From Parvibaculum sedimenti (lineage in GTDB: Bacteria > Pseudomonadota > Alphaproteobacteria > Parvibaculales > Parvibaculaceae), in assembly GCF_009184905.1 (NCBI RefSeq), contig NZ_WESC01000001.1, positions 300,679 to 364,678 on the forward strand: a stretch of DNA of 64,000 bases, given 5' to 3'. Positions 1-8,480 of this stretch are shown piece by piece. The notes beneath the pieces are model-generated. The model searched no databases. It had not been told where the DNA came from and saw only the letters and a list, made by a program, of their open reading frames with translations. Within the stretch, counting starts at the first letter, position 1. Each line of letters starts with the position of its first letter. The translations under genes and the position numbers were made by a program.

Positions 1-1021
1 CCTCTCGTTCATAGGTTCGCCGCTGTAACAGCGGATACCACTTGCTGAATGGGTGGTTGGCATGCGCGTGAGGGTCACCCCACCACAAAGCAAGCGGCGC
101 GTTATTCGGGCAATTTCGATAGGTCACGATTGTCGAACCGAAACCGACTCCAAAATTGCCGAACCCCAGCGGGCGCATGATGGCATTCGGGTTCTGGCAG
201 AAGCCTCTGATCCTGATCCCTGCGCGCAGGAACTCGCGCTCTAAGAGTTGCCGCCCTTCTTCAGATGAGAATATCTCGATCTTTGGCTTACCGCCCGGCT
301 GACGAGGCTCAAGCGGGAAGCGGCCTTGTTGGGCCAAATAGGCTGCCACAGCAGGATCGTCTGGCACCGTCGCGGGCCAAAGAACTTCTGACACGTTACG
401 GTAGGCTTTTCGATTCTCAATTCGAGCAGCAGCCCAAACATGAAGTTCGATCTCTTTTCCAGCCGCTGCGGCCACTTCCTTAAGGCTTTTCGTGCACTGC
501 CATTCGCCAAGCGTATGGGCGGCGATTACCAATATGTGCAGTACAGCCTTGGCTGGCGCGGCATCCCTGATCCATGCAGTCAAGTCACTCTTCACACGCC
601 CGCCGGTGAAGATCACGTCATCAAGATAGATGTATGCGCCACCAGCAGTGCCGCACGCATCAATATCAAGGCCACATTTCTCCAACAACGACTCCCCAAA
701 TAGTCTCCTTATGTGGGTCTGGCTTTGACCATTTTGCTGGATGTCTAAGACATGTGCGCGTGACCAGAATCTTTGTGCATTGTCGCCAGTCATGTCCTTG
801 TGAATTATCTGGTGAGAGAAGAAGCCTTTAATCCACTCCTGTGAGAGGTAGGTTTGCTTTAGGACATGGTTCACTTCACGCAGGATCGGCAGCTGGACGC
901 CAGCGTCAAACTGATCGATCCAGCGTCCCACATGCTCCGGAGTCGGCACCGCCAGATCACCCTCGCGATAGTCGGCGGTGGTCGTCGCTATTGATGCGAG
1001 CAGGTCGTCCCGTTCAGCCAT
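1..1021 (-). CDS. Phosphoribosyltransferase-like (PRTase-CE type) protein, 3' end beyond window
   Basis: An open frame of 340 codons begins at an ATG whose first base is 1021 and continues without a stop to the left edge, so the C-terminus is missing. A GGAGGGG ribosome site lies 6-7 bases upstream. Residues 134-141 read DDVIFTGG, after a hydrophobic strand (AYIYL). This matches the PRPP-binding loop of type I phosphoribosyltransferases (two acids, hydrophobics, T-G-G). The far C-terminal part (ALWWGDP, then WYPL) resembles PRTase-like proteins found in bacterial conflict loci and retron systems, from memory of those families. It starts 41 bases after the DUF262 gene, so it is probably the last visible gene of one operon. 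Its DNA looks more A+T-rich than the neighbours. The PRTase fold is fairly secure; the defence role is inference. Confidence 0.72.
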   Translation of the reverse strand, partial: MAERDDLLASIATTTADYREGDLAVPTPEHVGRWIDQFDAGVQLPILREVNHVLKQTYLSQEWIKGFFSHQIIHKDMTGDNAQRFWSRAHVLDIQQNGQSQTHIRRLFGESLLEKCGLDIDACGTAGGAYIYLDDVIFTGGRVKSDLTAWIRDAAPAKAVLHILVIAAHTLGEWQCTKSLKEVAAAAGKEIELHVWAAARIENRKAYRNVSEVLWPATVPDDPAVAAYLAQQGRFPLEPRQPGGKPKIEIFSSEEGRQLLEREFLRAGIRIRGFCQNPNAIMRPLGFGNFGVGFGSTIVTYRNCPNNAPLALWWGDPHAHANHPFSKWYPLLQRRTYERE

Positions 1022-1062
1022 GTCTCGCCCCTCCACCTGCGTAGTATTTCCCCGACGGCACT

Positions 1063-2859
1063 TCAAAGCCCTTCGAAATAAGTTTTGATCTTCTGGGCCA
1101 TCAGCTTTCGCCGCTGTTCCAGGAAGTCATCGAAAGACGGGATATCACCGTCGAGCAGGCACTCCGGCAGGCAGCTCATGCGAAGATTGGCGCGCATCTC
1201 CTCGTCCGTCGTGATGCCGCCATACTTCCGGATGCCGCCGTTGCACTGGCCCGCTAGCTCGGCGAAATAGATCTTCGGATCGCGGTCCCCGATGCCGATG
1301 TTTATCTCGCTTTGCGCGAGGACGAAGTTGGCGATCTGATTGTAACGACCACGCGTCAGACCTTGGCCCTTCAGGTGATTGCGCGGATAGACGTGGTGCA
1401 CATCGCTGCGGTTCAGCAACAGGTCGCGAACCGTGATGTCCCGCGACAGGAAGCCCAGATCGCCGAGCTTAACCTGCGCCGCCTGATAGACGAGGAAATA
1501 GGGACTCGAGGCCGACGAGGTGTCCATTTCCTGCGGCAGCAGCGTGGTCCAGAAGCTTTCCGGCAGCTCGGCGTTGATCACCGCATCCGTATAGGCAGCA
1601 AGGCCACGGGACTCGATCTGGCGGATATCGAAATCGAAGGCCGTTTCGGGGCTGCCCGAATAGCGCCCGCGCAGGAGGGACATGACGTACCAGCGCCGGA
1701 CGAGACGCTCGATCTCGGCTGCCGGCATGCCTTCGGCGCGGCCTCGTAGGTAGAGAATATAGGCGAAGTTGATGGCGTTCTGGCTGCGGATCAGGCCGGC
1801 CGTGACGAACCCTGCCGAGCGCAGGATCATCGTCAGCCGGTCGAAATGCGTCTTGTTGATAAAGTTCAGGACACCGGCCTTCAGGCGGGCAAAAGCCTCC
1901 TCGGCGACCGTCTCCTCGTACTGCTTCGTCTCGAAGTTCCGGCCCGACAGCAGGGCGACCAGATCCTGCAGCTTGCCCCTGCGGAACTCCGACGTGAACG
2001 CCACGCGCAGCATGTCGGTGTAGGACGGGTCGTACAGGTCGTCGTTTACGTCTTTCAGCCAGCGCATCTTCGGCAGGAATTCGGAAGCGGCGAAGACCTT
2101 GTCGCCCTTCTCGATGCGCGGCAGGAACTCCGGTGCGACGGCGAGGTGGCAGAAATAGTCGATCGCCTTGCGCAGCATGTTGCCGCCATAGGTGTCGTTC
2201 GCCGCGATTTTCGACATGGCGAAATCCGCTTGGCTGAGCGATGCGCCGGCCGAATTCACCCGGATGAAAATCTCGGTGACCGTCTCGATATCGAGATCTT
2301 CGGCCAGCTCGATGATGCCGACCTGGTTGTTGATGATCTTGCGGACCTTCTCCAGCACCAATGAAATCTGGTCCTGATCAGACTCCGGATTTCGCGCTGC
2401 ATATTCACGTGTGAGCTTGGTCAGGCTGGCGTCTGGCGCAAAGACCGTCGCCAAGTCAGCAATCCATGAGGCGTCCTTCTGGATGGCCGGGTTCGAGACC
2501 TCGAAGCGCTCCTCGACCGGGTGGAACGCAATCCGAATGCGGACGGTTTCGTAGTCCTTGGTCAGCACCTCCTGGCCGAGCAACGCGGCCATGAGCGCAG
2601 TGACGCGCTGCTGCCCATCGATCAGGATGCGCTTGCCCGACGATGTGGAGCCGTCTTTCAGCCGGACCGACGGGTTCCGCCAGGCGATGAGATAGCCAAC
2701 CGGATAGCCCTGATAGAGCGAGTCCAGAAGGTTGCGGACCTTGGTCGCGTCCCACACGAAAGGGCGCTGGATCTCCGGAATGGCGATCTCGCCGGACTTC
2801 ACCCAAGTGAGCAGGGTCTCGATCGGATGGGGGGTGACGGAGTAGCGTTGGGTGGCCAT
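1063..2859 (-). CDS. DUF262 + DUF1524 (GmrSD-like) protein
   Basis: A protein of about 598 residues. The N-terminus carries the DUF262 (ParB/Srx-like NTPase) signature: [10 protein letters not shown] near residues 25-35 and DGQQR near 80-84. The C-terminal part has DVHHVYP near residues 484-490, followed by an Asn-rich stretch, which fits the HNH-like DUF1524 nuclease domain. GmrSD-type proteins with this pairing are NTP-dependent restriction nucleases, often acting on modified DNA; that activity is family knowledge, not shown here. A GTG at 2865 would overlap the hsdM stop by four bases, but the GGGAGG site is better spaced (9 bases) for the ATG at 2859, so I prefer that start. It sits between hsdM and the PRTase-like gene. 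Confidence 0.85.
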
Positions 2860-2861
2860 GT

Positions 2862-4994
2862 TCACTGGCCTCCCGTCAGAACGTCTTCAAGAAGGCCTTC
2901 GGTTTCCTGCTCGAGCGCCCGAATGTCGGCTTCGATCTCCTGGAGTGTCCGCAGCGGCTGCGGCTTGTAGAAGTGCCGCGTGAAAGAGATTTCATAGCCG
3001 ATGACCGTCTTGGACGGGTCGATCCAGGCGTCCGACGCATGAGGCAGAACCTCGCGGCGGAAGAACGCCTCGATACCGCCGTCTTCCAAGAACGGCACCT
3101 GCTCGGTGTCTCTCAACTCCGTGTCCGGTTCGTATTCGACGATGGCTGGCTTTCCGCCGACGGTCAGATGATAGCTGCCGTGGAGCGCTTCCGTTTCAGC
3201 ATCGGCGCCCGGCTTGATCTTGGACACTTTCTTGATGACCGGCTCAGCTCCAGGATCCTTTATGCCCAGCCCCGCCATCAGGAGCTTCTGGCGTTTGGCT
3301 GTCATACGGACGCCGTGCTTGCCCGCCACAGCTTCGGCTTCTTCAAGGAAGCGGTTGAAATCTAGATGAGGGCCTTCGCCAAGCCGATCGGCTGCCGCTT
3401 CCACAACGCCAGTGAGCGATTCTTCCCCCGCATCCGCGCACACCTTTGCGAAGCGACGCCGCGCACTCGCCGACAGATCGACCTTCAAGCGCAAGGGCCG
3501 CTCGACCGTCACCTTCCAATAACCGAACGCCGCGTTGGGGAAGATCTTCGACTGCTCGCTTTCCTCGCTGTTGAGGAAGCTGTCGCAGATGCGCTTGATG
3601 TCGTCCGGCCCTAGAACGCAGTTCTTCTTGCCGAGGTTTTTCCGCAGCGGTTTGAACCACGCCGTGGCGTCGATCAGCTGGACTTTGCCCTTGCGGGACT
3701 CTGCCTTGCGATTGCTGAGCACCCAAATGTAGGTCGCGATGCCGGTGTTGTAGAAGATGTTCAGCGGCAGCGCGATGATGGCTTCGAGCCAATCGTTCTC
3801 GATGACCCAGCGCCGCACGTTGCTTTCGCCTGAGCCTGCATCGCCGGTGAACAGCGACGAGCCGTTGTGGACCTCCGCGATGCGGCTGCCGACCTTGGTG
3901 GCCTTCTTCATCTTGCTCAGCATGTTGGCCAGAAACACCATCTGGCCGTCGCTGGAGCGCGTGATCAGGCTGTACTCGGGATCACCACCGTGCTCGATCA
4001 CAAAACGGGGGTCGGCGATGTCCTTCTTGCCGCCGAGCCGATCAAGATCGGATTTCCAGCTCTTGCCGTAGGGCGGGTTCGACAGCATGAAATCGAACTC
4101 GCGCGATGGGAATGCGTCGCTGGAGAGCGTCGAGCCGTACTTCATGTTCTCAGCTTCTGCGCCTTCACCCTTGAGGATGAGGTCCGCCTTGCTGATGGCG
4201 AAGGTCTCTGGGTTAACCTCCTGTCCGTAGAGGTGGACGGACACTTCCTTGCGATGGTCGGCCGCCAGCTTGACCAGCGTCTCTTCCGCCACCGTCAGCA
4301 TACCGCCCGTACCGCAGGCTCCGTCGTATACAAGATAGGTGCCGGACTGAATTTCATCCGCGATCGGCATGAAGATCAGGTACGCCATGAGCTCCACCAC
4401 GTCGCGCGGCGTGAAGTGCTCTCCGGCCTCTTCGTTGTTCTCTTCGTTGAACCGTCTGATGAGCTCCTCGAAGATCGTTCCCATGGAGTGGTTGTCGAGC
4501 CCCGGTAGGCGCACACTTTCGTCTTGGTGCAACACGGGCTTCGGGCTGAGATTGACCGATGGGTCGAGGAATTTTTCGATCAGGAACCCGAGCGCGTCCG
4601 CTTCGACAAGCGTTGGGATCTGATTGCGGAACTTGAACTTGTCGAGCACCTCCTGAACGTTCGGGGAGAAGCCGTCGAGGTAGGCCTCGAAGTCTGACTT
4701 CAGCTGCTGGCGGCGCGCGCGAGACGTGAGGTCGCGAAGCCGGAACTGCGATGTGTTATAGAAGGCTTCGCCCGACGCCTGGCAAAGAGCCGCGTGCTGG
4801 TTGGCGACTCCGGCCTTGTCCAGTTGCGTCTTCATGGCCAAGACCGCGTCCTTGGTCGGTTCAAGCACGGCGTCGAGCCGACGAATGACGGTCATCGGCA
4901 GGATGACGTCGCGGTATTTGCCGCGAACATAGACATCGCGCAGAACATCATCGGCGATGTTCCAGATAAAATTGCTGATGTTCAGATCGCTCAC
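2862..4994 (-). CDS. hsdM: Type I restriction-modification DNA methyltransferase subunit
   Basis: About 710 residues, a normal to long HsdM. It transfers a methyl group from S-adenosylmethionine to adenine N6, normally in complex with an HsdS specificity subunit. Visible motifs are DGACGTGG (SAM-binding motif I, about residue 222) and NPPY (catalytic motif IV, about residue 306). An HsdM_N-like helical N-terminus precedes them. A C-terminal tail with [17 protein letters not shown] is typical of type I M subunits. The GTG at 4994 is chosen because GAGGGG lies just before it, overlapping the stop of the upstream HTH gene. A longer frame back to 5120 would overlap that gene. The next gene starts at its stop codon. 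No hsdS or hsdR is present in the window, so its targeting partner is unknown. Confidence 0.9.
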
Positions 4995-5004
4995 TCGGGC
5001 CCCC

Positions 5005-5202
5005 TCAAGCCTTGGTCTGTGCAGCTTTTTTCTGCAGATCAATCCAGCTATCGAGGTCCGATCTCTTGAAGCGCCATGCACCGGCCACCTTGAACCCCGG
5101 CAGGTCGCCACGCTTTGCAAGCCGATAGACCGTCTTCTCGTCGACGTTCAGATAGCCAGCCACATCCCGGACGGTCATGGCCTGGTCTGGCGAATCCGCC
5201 AT
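5005..5202 (-). CDS. Small helix-turn-helix DNA-binding protein (AlpA/excisionase type)
   Basis: A 65-residue protein made almost entirely of one MerR/excisionase-like winged HTH: MTVRDVAGYLNVDEKTVYRL, then GDLPGFKVAGAWRF and RSDLDSWI. This is the HTH_17 pattern, in which a short helix pair is followed by a beta-hairpin that carries the GAWRF-type wing. GAGGG lies about 9 bases before the ATG. The stop codon is 10 bases upstream of the hsdM start, so the two are almost certainly co-transcribed and this is the first gene of the cassette. It could be an operon regulator, a controller protein for the methyltransferase, or a leftover excisionase of an integrated element. The fold is clear; the role is not. 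Confidence 0.8.
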   Translation of the reverse strand: MADSPDQAMTVRDVAGYLNVDEKTVYRLAKRGDLPGFKVAGAWRFKRSDLDSWIDLQKKAAQTKA

Positions 5203-5711: not shown

Positions 5712-6287
5712 TCAGGAGGTCTTCGCGACGGTGAGCGAGCGGCGAGGGCGCAGATAGGCCGTTTCGGTCATGGTGATCGGCCCGACGATGAAATGGGCGA
5801 TCGGGGAGACGTAGCTGTAGGTCACCTCGGCCATGATGACGCTGGAATTGGCGGTGGTGAGGCCGGTCGGGAGAGTGATGCTGGAATTCACGGTGCGGGC
5901 GGTGGCACCTCCATAAGCGCTGCTCCAGGCGATGGTGGTCACGTTGCTGCTGCTCGCCACCACGCTTGAGATCGTGATCTTGATCGGTGCCGTGTCAAAG
6001 GGCGTAAGGATCGCGGTGCTTGCCGCGAAGACGTCGTTCAGGTCGGCGCTGCTGACCGTGGTCTCCTGGGCGACAAGGTCAGCGGCAGTCTCCGCGACAT
6101 TGGCCACGCGACGCGACGCGGTGAGCGCGTCCGCCGTCTCCAGCGTGCCGAAATACAGCGTCAGCATGATCGGCAGGATCATCGCGAACTCAACCGCGGC
6201 AAGCCCTCGCGTGTCTCGCCAGAAACGGCGCGACTGTTCATGCGCTGTCATCAGTGCTGCGGCTTCTTTGCGGGAATGGGCACTCAT
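5712..6287 (-). CDS. TadE-like minor pilin / pseudopilin
   Basis: A 191-residue protein with a short basic N-terminus (RRFWRD), then TRGLAAVEFAMILPIMLTLY. This is the TadE/TadG-type segment with a conserved Glu five residues into the hydrophobic stretch (AAVEFA), where prepilin peptidase of the Tad system cleaves or anchors. The rest is a Ser/Thr-rich beta domain expected outside the inner membrane. It follows the TadE-like gene at 6308-6853 by 20 bases, so the two form a small operon. An internal ATG (MTAHEQ) 12 codons in is a possible alternative start. It is most likely one of the TadE/TadF pair of minor pilins; I cannot tell which. Confidence 0.8.
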   Translation of the reverse strand: MSAHSRKEAAALMTAHEQSRRFWRDTRGLAAVEFAMILPIMLTLYFGTLETADALTASRRVANVAETAADLVAQETTVSSADLNDVFAASTAILTPFDTAPIKITISSVVASSSNVTTIAWSSAYGGATARTVNSSITLPTGLTTANSSVIMAEVTYSYVSPIAHFIVGPITMTETAYLRPRRSLTVAKTS

Positions 6288-6307
6288 GGGCGGGGCCTCT
6301 GCAACAC

Positions 6308-6853
6308 TCAGGAGGACGTATAGGGTTCATTGCGGAATGCGACGCTCGACTGGATAAGGCGAGAACTGCCCGTATTGTTCGCAAGTCCCGTTGGTAGCGG
6401 GCTCATGACACTCCAGACATAGAAGGCGCGGATAAGGACGATGTCGCCCGCGCTGCCGGTATCGAATTGCAGCGTGTCGACGATCTTTCCGTTCGCGTCG
6501 ACAGGCGAAGGAAAGGCCACGCTCGAGAAGCTCGAAAAGGTGCGCACGTCGAGCTTCAGGTTGGTGGTGCAGTTCGAGACAAAGACGACTTCATTGCAGA
6601 TCTTCTGAACGAGCTGCGCCGAGGTCATGTTGCCTGTCTGGGCCTGGCCGGTGCGGATGAGGCGGCCCACATCGGTCACCGCGTTTTCGAGGGTTGCCGT
6701 GGCGAAGAAAACGAGGCCGCCCTCGATGATGGCAAAAAGAACCATGAAGAAGGGAAGCGCCGTCAGGGCGAATTCGACGGCCACGCTCGCACGATTGGCG
6801 CGCGCGAAGCGGCGCAGGAGGCCGTTCCTTTTGGTGCTTTCGTTTTGCGTCAT
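6308..6853 (-). CDS. tadE: TadE-like minor pilin / pseudopilin
   Basis: A protein of 181 residues from the ATG at 6853 (MTQNESTKR). The frame is open further upstream but has no better start, and GAGGCGAG precedes this one. The N-terminus shows RANRASVAVEFALTALPFF, the positively charged stem and Glu-containing hydrophobic segment of the TadE family. One transmembrane helix is followed by an exported domain with two Cys (NEVVFVSNCTTN). It is first in a two-gene minus-strand operon, divergent from tadG across a 289-base region that carries two CtrA-like boxes. It probably helps assemble or initiate the Flp pilus. Confidence 0.82.
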   Translation of the reverse strand: MTQNESTKRNGLLRRFARANRASVAVEFALTALPFFMVLFAIIEGGLVFFATATLENAVTDVGRLIRTGQAQTGNMTSAQLVQKICNEVVFVSNCTTNLKLDVRTFSSFSSVAFPSPVDANGKIVDTLQFDTGSAGDIVLIRAFYVWSVMSPLPTGLANNTGSSRLIQSSVAFRNEPYTSS

Positions 6854-6955
6854 CGCCAGATACTCGCCTCGGGTTCTCGGCACGTCGCTGCGATGCTTCA
6901 GGCATCGTCGGCCCGGCGTGGATTGACCGTCCACGTCCATGTTGGCGGTAGATTC

Positions 6956-6971
6956 TTGATGCCTCGTTAAC
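6956..6971 (+). promoter_or_regulatory. CtrA-like box, tadE/tadG divergent promoter region (proximal to tadE)
   Basis: Reads TTGA, seven bases, TTAAC. This is one mismatch from the alphaproteobacterial CtrA consensus TTAA-N7-TTAAC. It lies about 100 bases upstream of the tadE start. A second, near-identical box lies at 7077-7092; both share TTGATG at the left end and CGTTAAC at the right end. Binding by CtrA is inference from the motif and from known CtrA control of Caulobacter pilus genes. Confidence 0.45.
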
Positions 6972-7076
6972 TTTCCATGCGCAAATGGAAGTATCGCCGA
7001 ACGGCAATGAGGCGGGCGGACTGCCGCGGGGAAGCTCGCGCATTTCGCGGAGATGCCTAGAGTTGCAACGTGAAAG

Positions 7077-7092
7077 TTGATGTTGCGTTAAC
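7077..7092 (+). promoter_or_regulatory. CtrA-like box upstream of tadG
   Basis: Reads TTGA, seven bases, TTAAC, ending 51 bases before the tadG ATG. It is identical in form to the box at 6956-6971 (13 of 16 bases shared). The two boxes flank the intergenic region so that each divergent gene has one nearby. No clear -10 was identified, so the transcription start is not placed. Confidence 0.45.
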
Positions 7093-7142
7093 TGCTGGCA
7101 TCACATCATCGCCCTGCATTTCATATTGCCGGGGCCAAGGCC

Positions 7143-8480
7143 ATGCGGAACCAGACTCCAACTTCAATGCGCCCAGCGCGGCGCCCATCCTTGCTGCGCC
7201 GCTTCATTTCGGACGCGCGCGGCAGCTATGCGATCCTCTTCGCTCTATCTGTCATCCCGATCCTCATTGCCGTCGGCGCGGCCATCGACATTTCGCGCGC
7301 TTATGTCGTCAAGCAGCGCATGACGAAGGCGCTCGATGCCGCGGGCCTCGCTGTCGCGGGCATGACGGGCCTTACGAACGCCCAGATACAGACGACCGCT
7401 CAGAACTTTTTCAATGCCAATTATCCGGCGACAAAAATCGGTGTTCCCGGCACTCTGACGGTGACGTCCACCACTGCGAAGGTCACGCTTGCCGCCTCCG
7501 CGTCGATGCCGACTGCGATCATGGGCATTGTCGGCATCAACAGCATGAGCATTGCCGCAACCTCAGAGATCACCAAGCTGGGCAAGAAGCTGGAGGTGGC
7601 GCTGGTCTTCGACAATACCGGCTCGATGTCACAAAGCAGCAAGCTCTCCTCGCTTCAGACGGCGGCAAAGAGCTTCCTGACGGTCCTGCAGAACTCGGCG
7701 CCGAACGCCGGCGACGTCAAGGTTGCGATCATTCCCTTTACGACAGACGTCAATGTCGGTTCGTCGAACAGTTCTGCGAGCTGGCTCAAATGGAGCTGGA
7801 CCTACCCGTCGCAAACCTGCACCAGGACATGGGGCCGCACGACCTGTACCGACACCACGTCGACCAAAACCGTCAGCAAGACGGGCTGGAAGGGGTGTGT
7901 TACCGATCGCGACGAGGACAATGACGTGTCGGTGACGCCGCCTTCGACCAGCGATTCAACGACACTTTATCCGGCCGATACTGCGAACAGCTACAACAAT
8001 AGTTGCAGCCTGCAGTCGCTGATGTCGCTCTCCTATGATTGGACGGCGCTGACGAGCAAGATCAATGCGATGACGGCCGGCGGCTCGACCAACACGACGA
8101 TCGGACTCGTCTGGGGCTGGAACATGCTGACGCAGGGCATGCCCCTCTCGACGGCGGCAGCGGCGGACCCCAAGAAGATCAACAAGGTGCTGATCTTCCT
8201 GACTGACGGCGACAATACTTACTATCGTCAGGGAGCGGTGACTTGCGACGGCATGAACATATGTTCGGGCGCGGATGTGCGCACCGCCCTTGTCTGCAGT
8301 GCCATCAAGAACGCCGGCATCACGGTCTATACGATCCGCACGCTGGATGGAAACGCCACGCTTCTGTCCGCCTGCTCGTCGGGCACGGGTTATTACTACG
8401 ACGTATCGAGCGCAAGTCAGCTCGATTCGATCTTTACGGCGATCGCGACGTCGATTTCCAATCTCCGCATCAGCCAATAA
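7143..8480 (+). CDS. tadG: TadG-like pilus protein with von Willebrand A domain
   Basis: 445 residues. A basic leader (RRPSLLRRFISDARG) is followed by SYAILFALSVIPILIAVGAA, the TadG membrane anchor. Then comes a large exported vWA domain with a MIDAS-like DNTGSMS near residues 156-162 and FLTDGD near 351. The first MIDAS Ser is Thr here, as in many TadG proteins. Several Cys in the middle (CTRTWGRTTC, CSLQ, CDGMNIC) could form disulfides. TadG proteins are envelope proteins needed for Flp pilus biogenesis in some bacteria; the metal-dependent adhesion role is a family inference. Its mRNA ends at the strong hairpin at 8498. Confidence 0.88.
   Translation: MRNQTPTSMRPARRPSLLRRFISDARGSYAILFALSVIPILIAVGAAIDISRAYVVKQRMTKALDAAGLAVAGMTGLTNAQIQTTAQNFFNANYPATKIGVPGTLTVTSTTAKVTLAASASMPTAIMGIVGINSMSIAATSEITKLGKKLEVALVFDNTGSMSQSSKLSSLQTAAKSFLTVLQNSAPNAGDVKVAIIPFTTDVNVGSSNSSASWLKWSWTYPSQTCTRTWGRTTCTDTTSTKTVSKTGWKGCVTDRDEDNDVSVTPPSTSDSTTLYPADTANSYNNSCSLQSLMSLSYDWTALTSKINAMTAGGSTNTTIGLVWGWNMLTQGMPLSTAAAADPKKINKVLIFLTDGDNTYYRQGAVTCDGMNICSGADVRTALVCSAIKNAGITVYTIRTLDGNATLLSACSSGTGYYYDVSSASQLDSIFTAIATSISNLRISQ

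Follow-up and report, generated by a model that had tools for sequence, protein, structure and literature searches.

Toxins held in check by a restriction-modification (R-M) complex have a precedent in PrrC, a tRNA nuclease whose gene lies inside a type I operon; it is held by the EcoprrI complex, which it guards, and its proposed trigger is an attack on that R-M complex. NADAR proteins have been proven to act as antidotes when bases are ADP-ribosylated (PMC11125620, PMC11543638), coverage of modified DNA by a GmrSD nuclease has been argued for TgvAB (PMC11411939), and the DS label is the DefensePredictor naming for 42 validated transcription units (PMC13092281). Here we describe a minus-strand operon of Parvibaculum sedimenti that crosses the edge of a 64,000-nucleotide stretch (G000:C1:300679-364678; the whole stretch is hereafter the window). 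It combines a type I R-M system, a GmrSD-like nuclease and a DS-32 pair consisting of a phosphoribosyltransferase (PRTase) and a NADAR domain, the latter fused to the type I specificity subunit HsdS. All three components are known kinds of defence, and the fusion suggests, at the level of protein sequence, that two of these immune systems are physically coupled.

Reading leftwards across the window edge in the whole genome (region L004, in which window position x is L004 x+7000), we found the operon to be uninterrupted, in the order helix-turn-helix (HTH) gene, hsdM, GmrSD-like nuclease gene, PRTase gene, hsdS and hsdR, with a complete type I set (HsdM, HsdS and HsdR). An earlier sequence-only reading, confined to the window, had placed the first four of these genes on one strand with gaps or overlaps of 10, about 2 and 41 bases; the positions were confirmed, with spacings of 10, 2 and 41 bases and all four genes on the minus strand. 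Its description of a system without visible HsdS or HsdR proved to be an effect of the window edge: looking to the left of the window, as that reading had proposed, revealed both genes directly downstream of the PRTase gene. A type I system without HsdS and HsdR is thereby ruled out, and the bolder composite scheme, in which HsdM marks self and the DUF262/DUF1524 protein cuts in place of HsdR, finds no support. The simpler alternative, in which a normal type I locus has taken up genes between hsdM and hsdS, was right about the restriction system; "cargo" is too weak a word for a pair whose NADAR is fused to HsdS. That the PRTase acts on nucleotides as a back-up, as had also been suggested, is possible.

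A NADAR domain at the N-terminus of HsdS

The gene order, the fusion and its conservation, the intact motifs and the swapping of the PRTase body can all be read directly from the sequence. The first ~200 residues of HsdS are a NADAR domain, joined in frame to the target part (Methylase_S/Specificity_I within amino acids (aa) 268-695) in a single open reading frame (ORF) of 726 aa on the minus strand. This ORF lies almost wholly outside the window (window 1..12; L004 7012 or 6991 to 4832), and it starts either at window base 12 or, with greater likelihood, 10 bases beyond the window edge. The NADAR region (aa 21-201) scored 295 bits against the NCBIfam model NF053876 DS32_2 (curated cut-off 240), and the PRTase-CE protein (348 aa; window 1..1021, minus strand, ATG at 1021, with the last 26 bases left of the window) scored 416 bits against NF053875 DS32_1 (curated cut-off 250). 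With both proteins over their cut-offs and the genes adjacent and overlapping (hsdS overlaps the PRTase stop), the pair belongs to DS-32. Going by its name, the NCBIfam DS32 is presumably the DS-32 of PMC13092281; the main text of that article does not contain "DS-32", and a figure legend merely lists "PRTase".

We assembled 45 PRTase-NADAR loci, 34 from a scan of viral_contigs with the PRTase profile and 11 from genomes, plasmids and Escherichia coli. NADAR was directly downstream of the PRTase in 34/34 of the former and in all 11 of the latter, as expected if the PRTase is toxic without NADAR. Nine loci lie in type I operons (L004, L010, L011, L028, L060, L061, L062, L068 and L088), and in 9/9 of them NADAR and HsdS form one ORF. 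Since the L062 and L088 sequences are the same (no difference in 8,326 bases) and L060 and L061 are 97-98% alike, these amount to 8 distinct sequences, about seven of them independent. Three further loci lie in Hma operons, two with a separate NADAR (G550 and G480) and one (L066) in which NADAR and the DUF1156 methylase HmaB are fused. Because of this HmaB fusion, found besides those to HsdS, the tethering of NADAR to a DNA-methylase system appears to have arisen twice. The remaining 33 NADAR ORFs stand alone, one of them longer (L065, 348 aa), with no second Pfam domain detected in it. No account of the physical coupling, of its presence in two unrelated systems or of an exchangeable PRTase body was found in the literature searched (titles, abstract starts and passages, preprints lying outside its scope), and the main text of PMC12839542 mentions neither NADAR nor PRTase.

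Residue conservation was assessed in 32 of the 45 loci; the 13 dropped from the PRTase and NADAR alignment were viral loci, either near-identical to others or, for L087 and L088, cut by contig ends. The phosphoribosyl pyrophosphate (PRPP) motif of the PRTase reads YLDDVIFTG, with Y132, D134, D135 and G140 invariant in 32/32 and T or S preceding the glycine. The structure model (predicted local distance difference test, pLDDT, 84.5) resembles the class I PRTase fold. Foldseek returned three hits at E ≤ 0.001, all uracil phosphoribosyltransferases (UPRTases), with template modelling (TM) scores of just 0.25-0.27 by query length; the best VIA-align match was UPRTase 1o5o (Z 9.8, root-mean-square deviation 3.0 over 126 residues), and 47 of the 50 rows listed were named PRTase or PyrR, the other three (Fur1p, TT0130 and TT1027) bearing no such name. 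In the profile search by sequence, PyrR was weak (best E 0.18) and ranked behind two other chains. Motif and modelled fold together point to a class I phosphoribosyltransferase with predicted catalytic activity. "PRTase-CE" is unmentioned in the literature searched, and its titles and abstract starts describe no phosphoribosylating toxin.

In the NADAR domain, E61 and E140 are invariant in 32/32 DS-32 members. The nearest solved structure is E. coli YbiA (2b3w, 1.7e-19), for which hydrolysis of riboflavin intermediates is given in PMC11543638. R68 stands where YbiA has lysine and is arginine in 32/32. The residue set of DarT1-linked NADAR (E88, K95 and D171 in E. coli C7 numbering) is thus only partly present: the first glutamate is kept, lysine is replaced by arginine, and the third position is glutamate, as in YbiA. 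None of the six operon proteins matched DarT and the partner of NADAR is PRTase-CE, so the pair falls outside the definition of a DarT-NADAR toxin-antitoxin system.

Two side observations concern neighbouring arrangements. An extra gene, RhuM-like by eye only, lies between NADAR-hsdS and hsdR in L062 (5179-6305) and L088 (2383-3509), whose contigs are identical here. In Vibrio parahaemolyticus (L015 7111-8606), a Dam-type adenine methylase is immediately followed by a DS-32-like NADAR (44% identical), and no DS-32 PRTase was matched in that locus; this is another neighbourhood that combines NADAR with a methylase.

Exchange of the PRTase body and target domains

Comparison of related operons revealed a mosaic pattern. 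Compared with their counterparts in Alkalilacustris brevis (L010), the proteins of the window's operon are 94-98% identical, except for NADAR (85%) and the HsdS part (34%). Across the four fused HsdS proteins compared, NADAR is 79-90% identical; the first target recognition domain (TRD1) is 36-41% identical, but 93% between L011 and L028, and TRD2 is 18-27%. At the DNA level, TRD1 and TRD2 are 39-54% identical in six operon pairs, set against 75-93% for hsdM, gmrSD (where present), NADAR and hsdR; in this comparison the gmrSD column of L011 (89 bases) is meaningless, the gene being absent, and the HTH column of L028 (59-62%) contains no true match.

The PRTase gene shows a break of the same kind. 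Its first 180 bases, encoding a conserved N-terminus of ~60 residues (window 842..1021, minus strand), are 79% identical between the window and L028, the body is 53% and the downstream NADAR 89% identical. The drop, from 78% identity to 42%, comes near window base 840, from where the exchangeable body runs leftwards on the minus strand. The PRTase body of L028 is 85% common with that of L060. Likewise, the Hma loci G550 and G480 have NADARs that are 95% identical and PRTase bodies that are 36% identical. Over the 32 aligned loci, NADAR was more alike than PRTase in 491 of 496 pairs, the five exceptions being of the same body type. The E. coli prophage copies did not show the conserved PRTase N-terminus of the type I and Hma pairs (for example, 48% between L054 and L079). 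Judged by these alignments, the PRTase body has been swapped between otherwise similar operons and behaves like a target domain.

A proposed guard of the restriction complex and its alternatives

Our preferred reading, to which we assign a probability of roughly 45%, is that one operon links three defences, with a PRTase toxin and a NADAR-HsdS antidote guarding the R-M complex. Catalytic activity, substrate, toxicity and guarding are what we infer here. The type I system would methylate self and cut unmethylated DNA, and the GmrSD-like nuclease, an optional member, would probably cut modified-base DNA that type I systems miss. The PRTase would act as a PRPP-dependent toxin that puts phosphoribose on a base, in nucleic acid or in a nucleotide, and NADAR would take the phosphoribose off by hydrolysing the N-glycosidic bond. 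Since NADAR forms the N-terminus of HsdS, the antidote would exist solely within the methylase/translocase complex, so that a phage blocking or dismantling this complex, as DNA-mimic anti-restriction proteins do, would cause the antidote to be lost or displaced, and the PRTase would stop the infection. Nested defence genes in restriction operons are usually taken for hitchhikers; the fusion makes cooperation directly testable. The NADAR partner also limits the likely product of DS-32 chemistry to an N-glycoside, offering a route to that chemistry.

We counted two related operons in favour of a toxin and eraser: a DarT-DarG pair occupies the interval between hsdS and hsdR in G056 (L050 7755-9459), and DarG with a truncated DarT occupies it in G261:C1 (L045 9501-10757), where the match covers just the last 60 DarT residues. 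One relative thus carries a base-modifying toxin and its eraser and another the remains of such a pair, and the window pair may be read as a further example.

Several findings weigh against this guard hypothesis. The lysine essential in DarT1-linked NADAR is arginine in all 32 members, and the substrate need not be ADP-ribosyl-guanine; according to PMC11543638, the K95R variant of E. coli C7 NADAR hydrolyses ADP-ribosyl-guanine in vitro and no longer rescues DarT1 toxicity. Given this replacement and the failure of K95R to rescue, the substrate probably differs from that of DarT1, and a phosphoribosyl adduct made by the neighbouring PRTase would be the obvious candidate. The HmaB fusion is known from one metagenome contig (L066), the two other Hma loci keeping NADAR separate, and the model of full-length NADAR-HsdS, with a pLDDT of just 51, gives coupling no structural support. 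E. coli prophages and plasmids also carry DS-32 pairs that have neither type I nor Hma genes with them, so the guard role is not essential to the pair. Finally, PRTase bodies are exchanged beside NADARs that hardly vary, which is odd for a strictly matched toxin-antidote pair. This pattern is compatible with a body that senses or targets features of the phage and always makes the same bond. A bolder extension, which we regard as improbable, would make the body a third exchangeable module beside the two HsdS target domains: the PRTase would be a phosphoribosylating toxin and the NADAR tethered to HsdS or HmaB its eraser, the R-M complex would serve as both attacker and safety catch, and the body would diversify to sense changing phage proteins.

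The strongest competing account treats DS-32 and GmrSD as independent defences stacked on the type I promoter, with the NADAR-HsdS fusion as harmless read-through that keeps co-expression. A harmless fusion should often break, yet this one is kept in 9/9 loci (8 distinct), mostly over different target domains, and the separate methylase fusion in an Hma locus also speaks against it. In its favour, DS-32 pairs live alone on plasmids and in prophages, and the GmrSD gene comes and goes, leaving a 94-aa remnant between hsdM and hsdS in G364. The same type I lineage also accommodates other guests, namely a SoFic-type Fic protein between hsdM and hsdS of G261:C1 (L045 7001-8290) in addition to its DarG, the DarTG of G056, and a GmrSD that precedes hsdM both in G280 and on an E. 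coli plasmid. For Vibrio cholerae, TgvAB has been published as a GmrSD guest of a type I operon (PMC11411939). On balance, we consider stacking unlikely.

We hold it very doubtful that NADAR is instead an effector partner, carried by HsdS to foreign DNA, where it would remove phage base modifications or phosphoribosyl marks left by the PRTase and expose the DNA to HsdR or GmrSD. Its place on the DNA-targeting subunit, the action of NADARs on DNA bases (PMC11543638) and a neighbouring GmrSD of the type expected to handle modified DNA would suit such a role; the DS-32 pairs outside R-M systems have no adjacent DNA-targeting subunit, and NADAR is the slower-evolving partner in 491/496 pairs. In a metabolic module, PRTase and NADAR would make and cleave the N-glycosidic bond of a free nucleotide, and PRPP or a base would be drained as infection proceeds, an idea near to the nucleotide-pool proposal of the sequence-only reading. 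It is favoured by the fold and motif, those of nucleotide-making class I PRTases (UPRTase, PyrR and hypoxanthine-guanine phosphoribosyltransferase), and by the action of YbiA on riboflavin intermediates (PMC11543638). It has at best a slim chance, as it leaves the tethering of NADAR to HsdS or HmaB unexplained and the swapped PRTase body suggests changing recognition, not a fixed small substrate.

Operon context and comparison with known systems

The four genes that begin inside the window encode Pfam domains with E-values far beyond chance (HTH_17 5.9e-17, N6_Mtase 2e-52, GmrSD_N 3.5e-30 and PRTase-CE 3.2e-59). HsdM, a type I DNA N6-adenine methyltransferase of 710 aa (window 2862..4994, minus strand, from GTG at 4994), has N6_Mtase and HsdM_N domains, matches the PADLOC model MTase_I PDLC03029 with 843 bits and retains NPPY and GxGG. 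HsdR (991 aa; L004 4845-1870, minus strand, wholly outside the window), recognised by its HsdR domains, overlaps the end of hsdS by 14 bases and retains GSGKS, DEAH and ELK. The type I system is therefore complete by its gene content and motifs, with predicted methylation and restriction activity.

The GmrSD-like nuclease (window 1063..2865, minus strand, start at 2865 or 2859), a putative modification-dependent enzyme, combines DUF262 with a probable DUF1524 half (GmrSD_N; PADLOC HEC-05, 1.6e-31). It resembles structure chain 7p9k (3e-9), which we take to be of the BrxU type. Its motifs QRP, DGQQR and FIRVN correspond to the DUF262 motifs QR, DGQQR and FxxxN listed for GmrSD in PMC11411939, and HHVYP is also present. 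Pfam GmrSD_C, the DUF1524 half, gave no match; in a seven-row alignment, an HHxYP...N...N motif was visible by eye in the five copies embedded after hsdM, including that of the window, and did not align in the two upstream-type copies. The gene has no counterpart in L011, L062 and L068 and is optional in relatives. As these are three of the eight type I loci with a visible hsdM-PRTase interval (the contig of L088 starts inside the PRTase and is not counted), we rejected the DUF262/DUF1524 protein as the main cutter.

The leading gene encodes an HTH_17 (excisionase-like) DNA-binding protein of 65 aa (window 5005..5202, minus strand), likely the operon regulator; it was matched in L010, L060 and L061 and unmatched in L028, L062 and L068. 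It scored 78.5 bits against NCBIfam antiphage_MADS1, the model of the MADS protein MAD1, just under the cut-off of 80. A MAD1-like regulator may be common to methylase-based defences. On one flank, left of the window, is a cluster of tail genes resembling those of gene transfer agents (GTA_TIM, Phage-tail_3, tape measure and peptidase M15; L002 1-13150), and on the other are TadE/Tad pilus-type genes (window 5712-8480).

Near relatives of the window HsdM (E ≤ 1e-150) were present in 10 of 385 genomes of the class, at 11 loci, two of which, the window and G060, carry the gmrSD and PRTase module. The sequence-only reading had held that absence of the DUF262 and PRTase genes from most related loci would indicate a normal type I system with cargo; such absence was largely observed, a DS-32 PRTase over the cut-off occurring only in the window and G060 among the 10 genomes. 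No guest genes were found between hsdM and hsdR in G066 or in G186, where hsdS is shortened; G065 and G288, which end at contig edges, and G261:C2, with no hsdS or hsdR match, count neither way. A related type I operon (WYL, DUF262, hsdM, hsdS and hsdR) on an E. coli plasmid (L016 4800-18299) lies a few kb from mcr-10.1 and an insertion sequence element. We ruled out a cassette native to the lineage, NADAR being present in 1/40 genomes of the order and the Alkalilacustris brevis operon proteins being mostly 94-98% identical.

In the wider collections, genomes over a DS-32 cut-off numbered 3/385 in the class draw and 3/398 in the phylum draw; the PRTase was matched in 3 of 72,556 plasmid records and in none of 50,697 phage records. 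A Klebsiella DS-32 query met 62 of 5,426 E. coli genomes, through a portion of the NADAR gene in the rows listed, which is not a count of pairs. Free pairs were found on Methylobacterium and Vibrio plasmids, in Klebsiella and in an E. coli prophage; in E. coli strain MEI1O2-23, the pair lies among lambdoid prophage genes and bears the same NCBI names.

Set against described systems, the locus matches DS-32 (NF053875/NF053876; PMC13092281) in having PRTase and NADAR over their cut-offs, in the same order and adjacent; it differs in that NADAR forms the N-terminal part of HsdS and a type I operon houses the pair, whereas the one E. coli pair whose surroundings were examined is free in a lambdoid prophage. 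As in TgvAB of V. cholerae VPI-2 (PMC11411939), a GmrSD-family nuclease is housed within a type I operon, but here it is one protein instead of two, located between hsdM and hsdS with DS-32 beside it. The pairing of NADAR with a transferase recalls DarT1-NADAR, and DarTG fills the hsdS-hsdR gap of a related operon; unlike both, the operon described here encodes a class I PRTase and no ADP-ribosyltransferase, and its NADAR has arginine for lysine and the YbiA-type glutamate. In Hma (HmaABC), DS-32 likewise sits between hmaA and hmaB, as recognised by PADLOC models in G550, by similarity in L066, and in G480 by an ORF layout and leading sequences like those of G550; those operons are without type I subunits, and NADAR is separate in two and HmaB-fused in one. 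With PrrC and EcoprrI, the operon shares a toxin gene inside a type I operon, here a putative one; it differs in that HsdS contains the candidate antidote and a PRTase takes the place of the tRNA nuclease.

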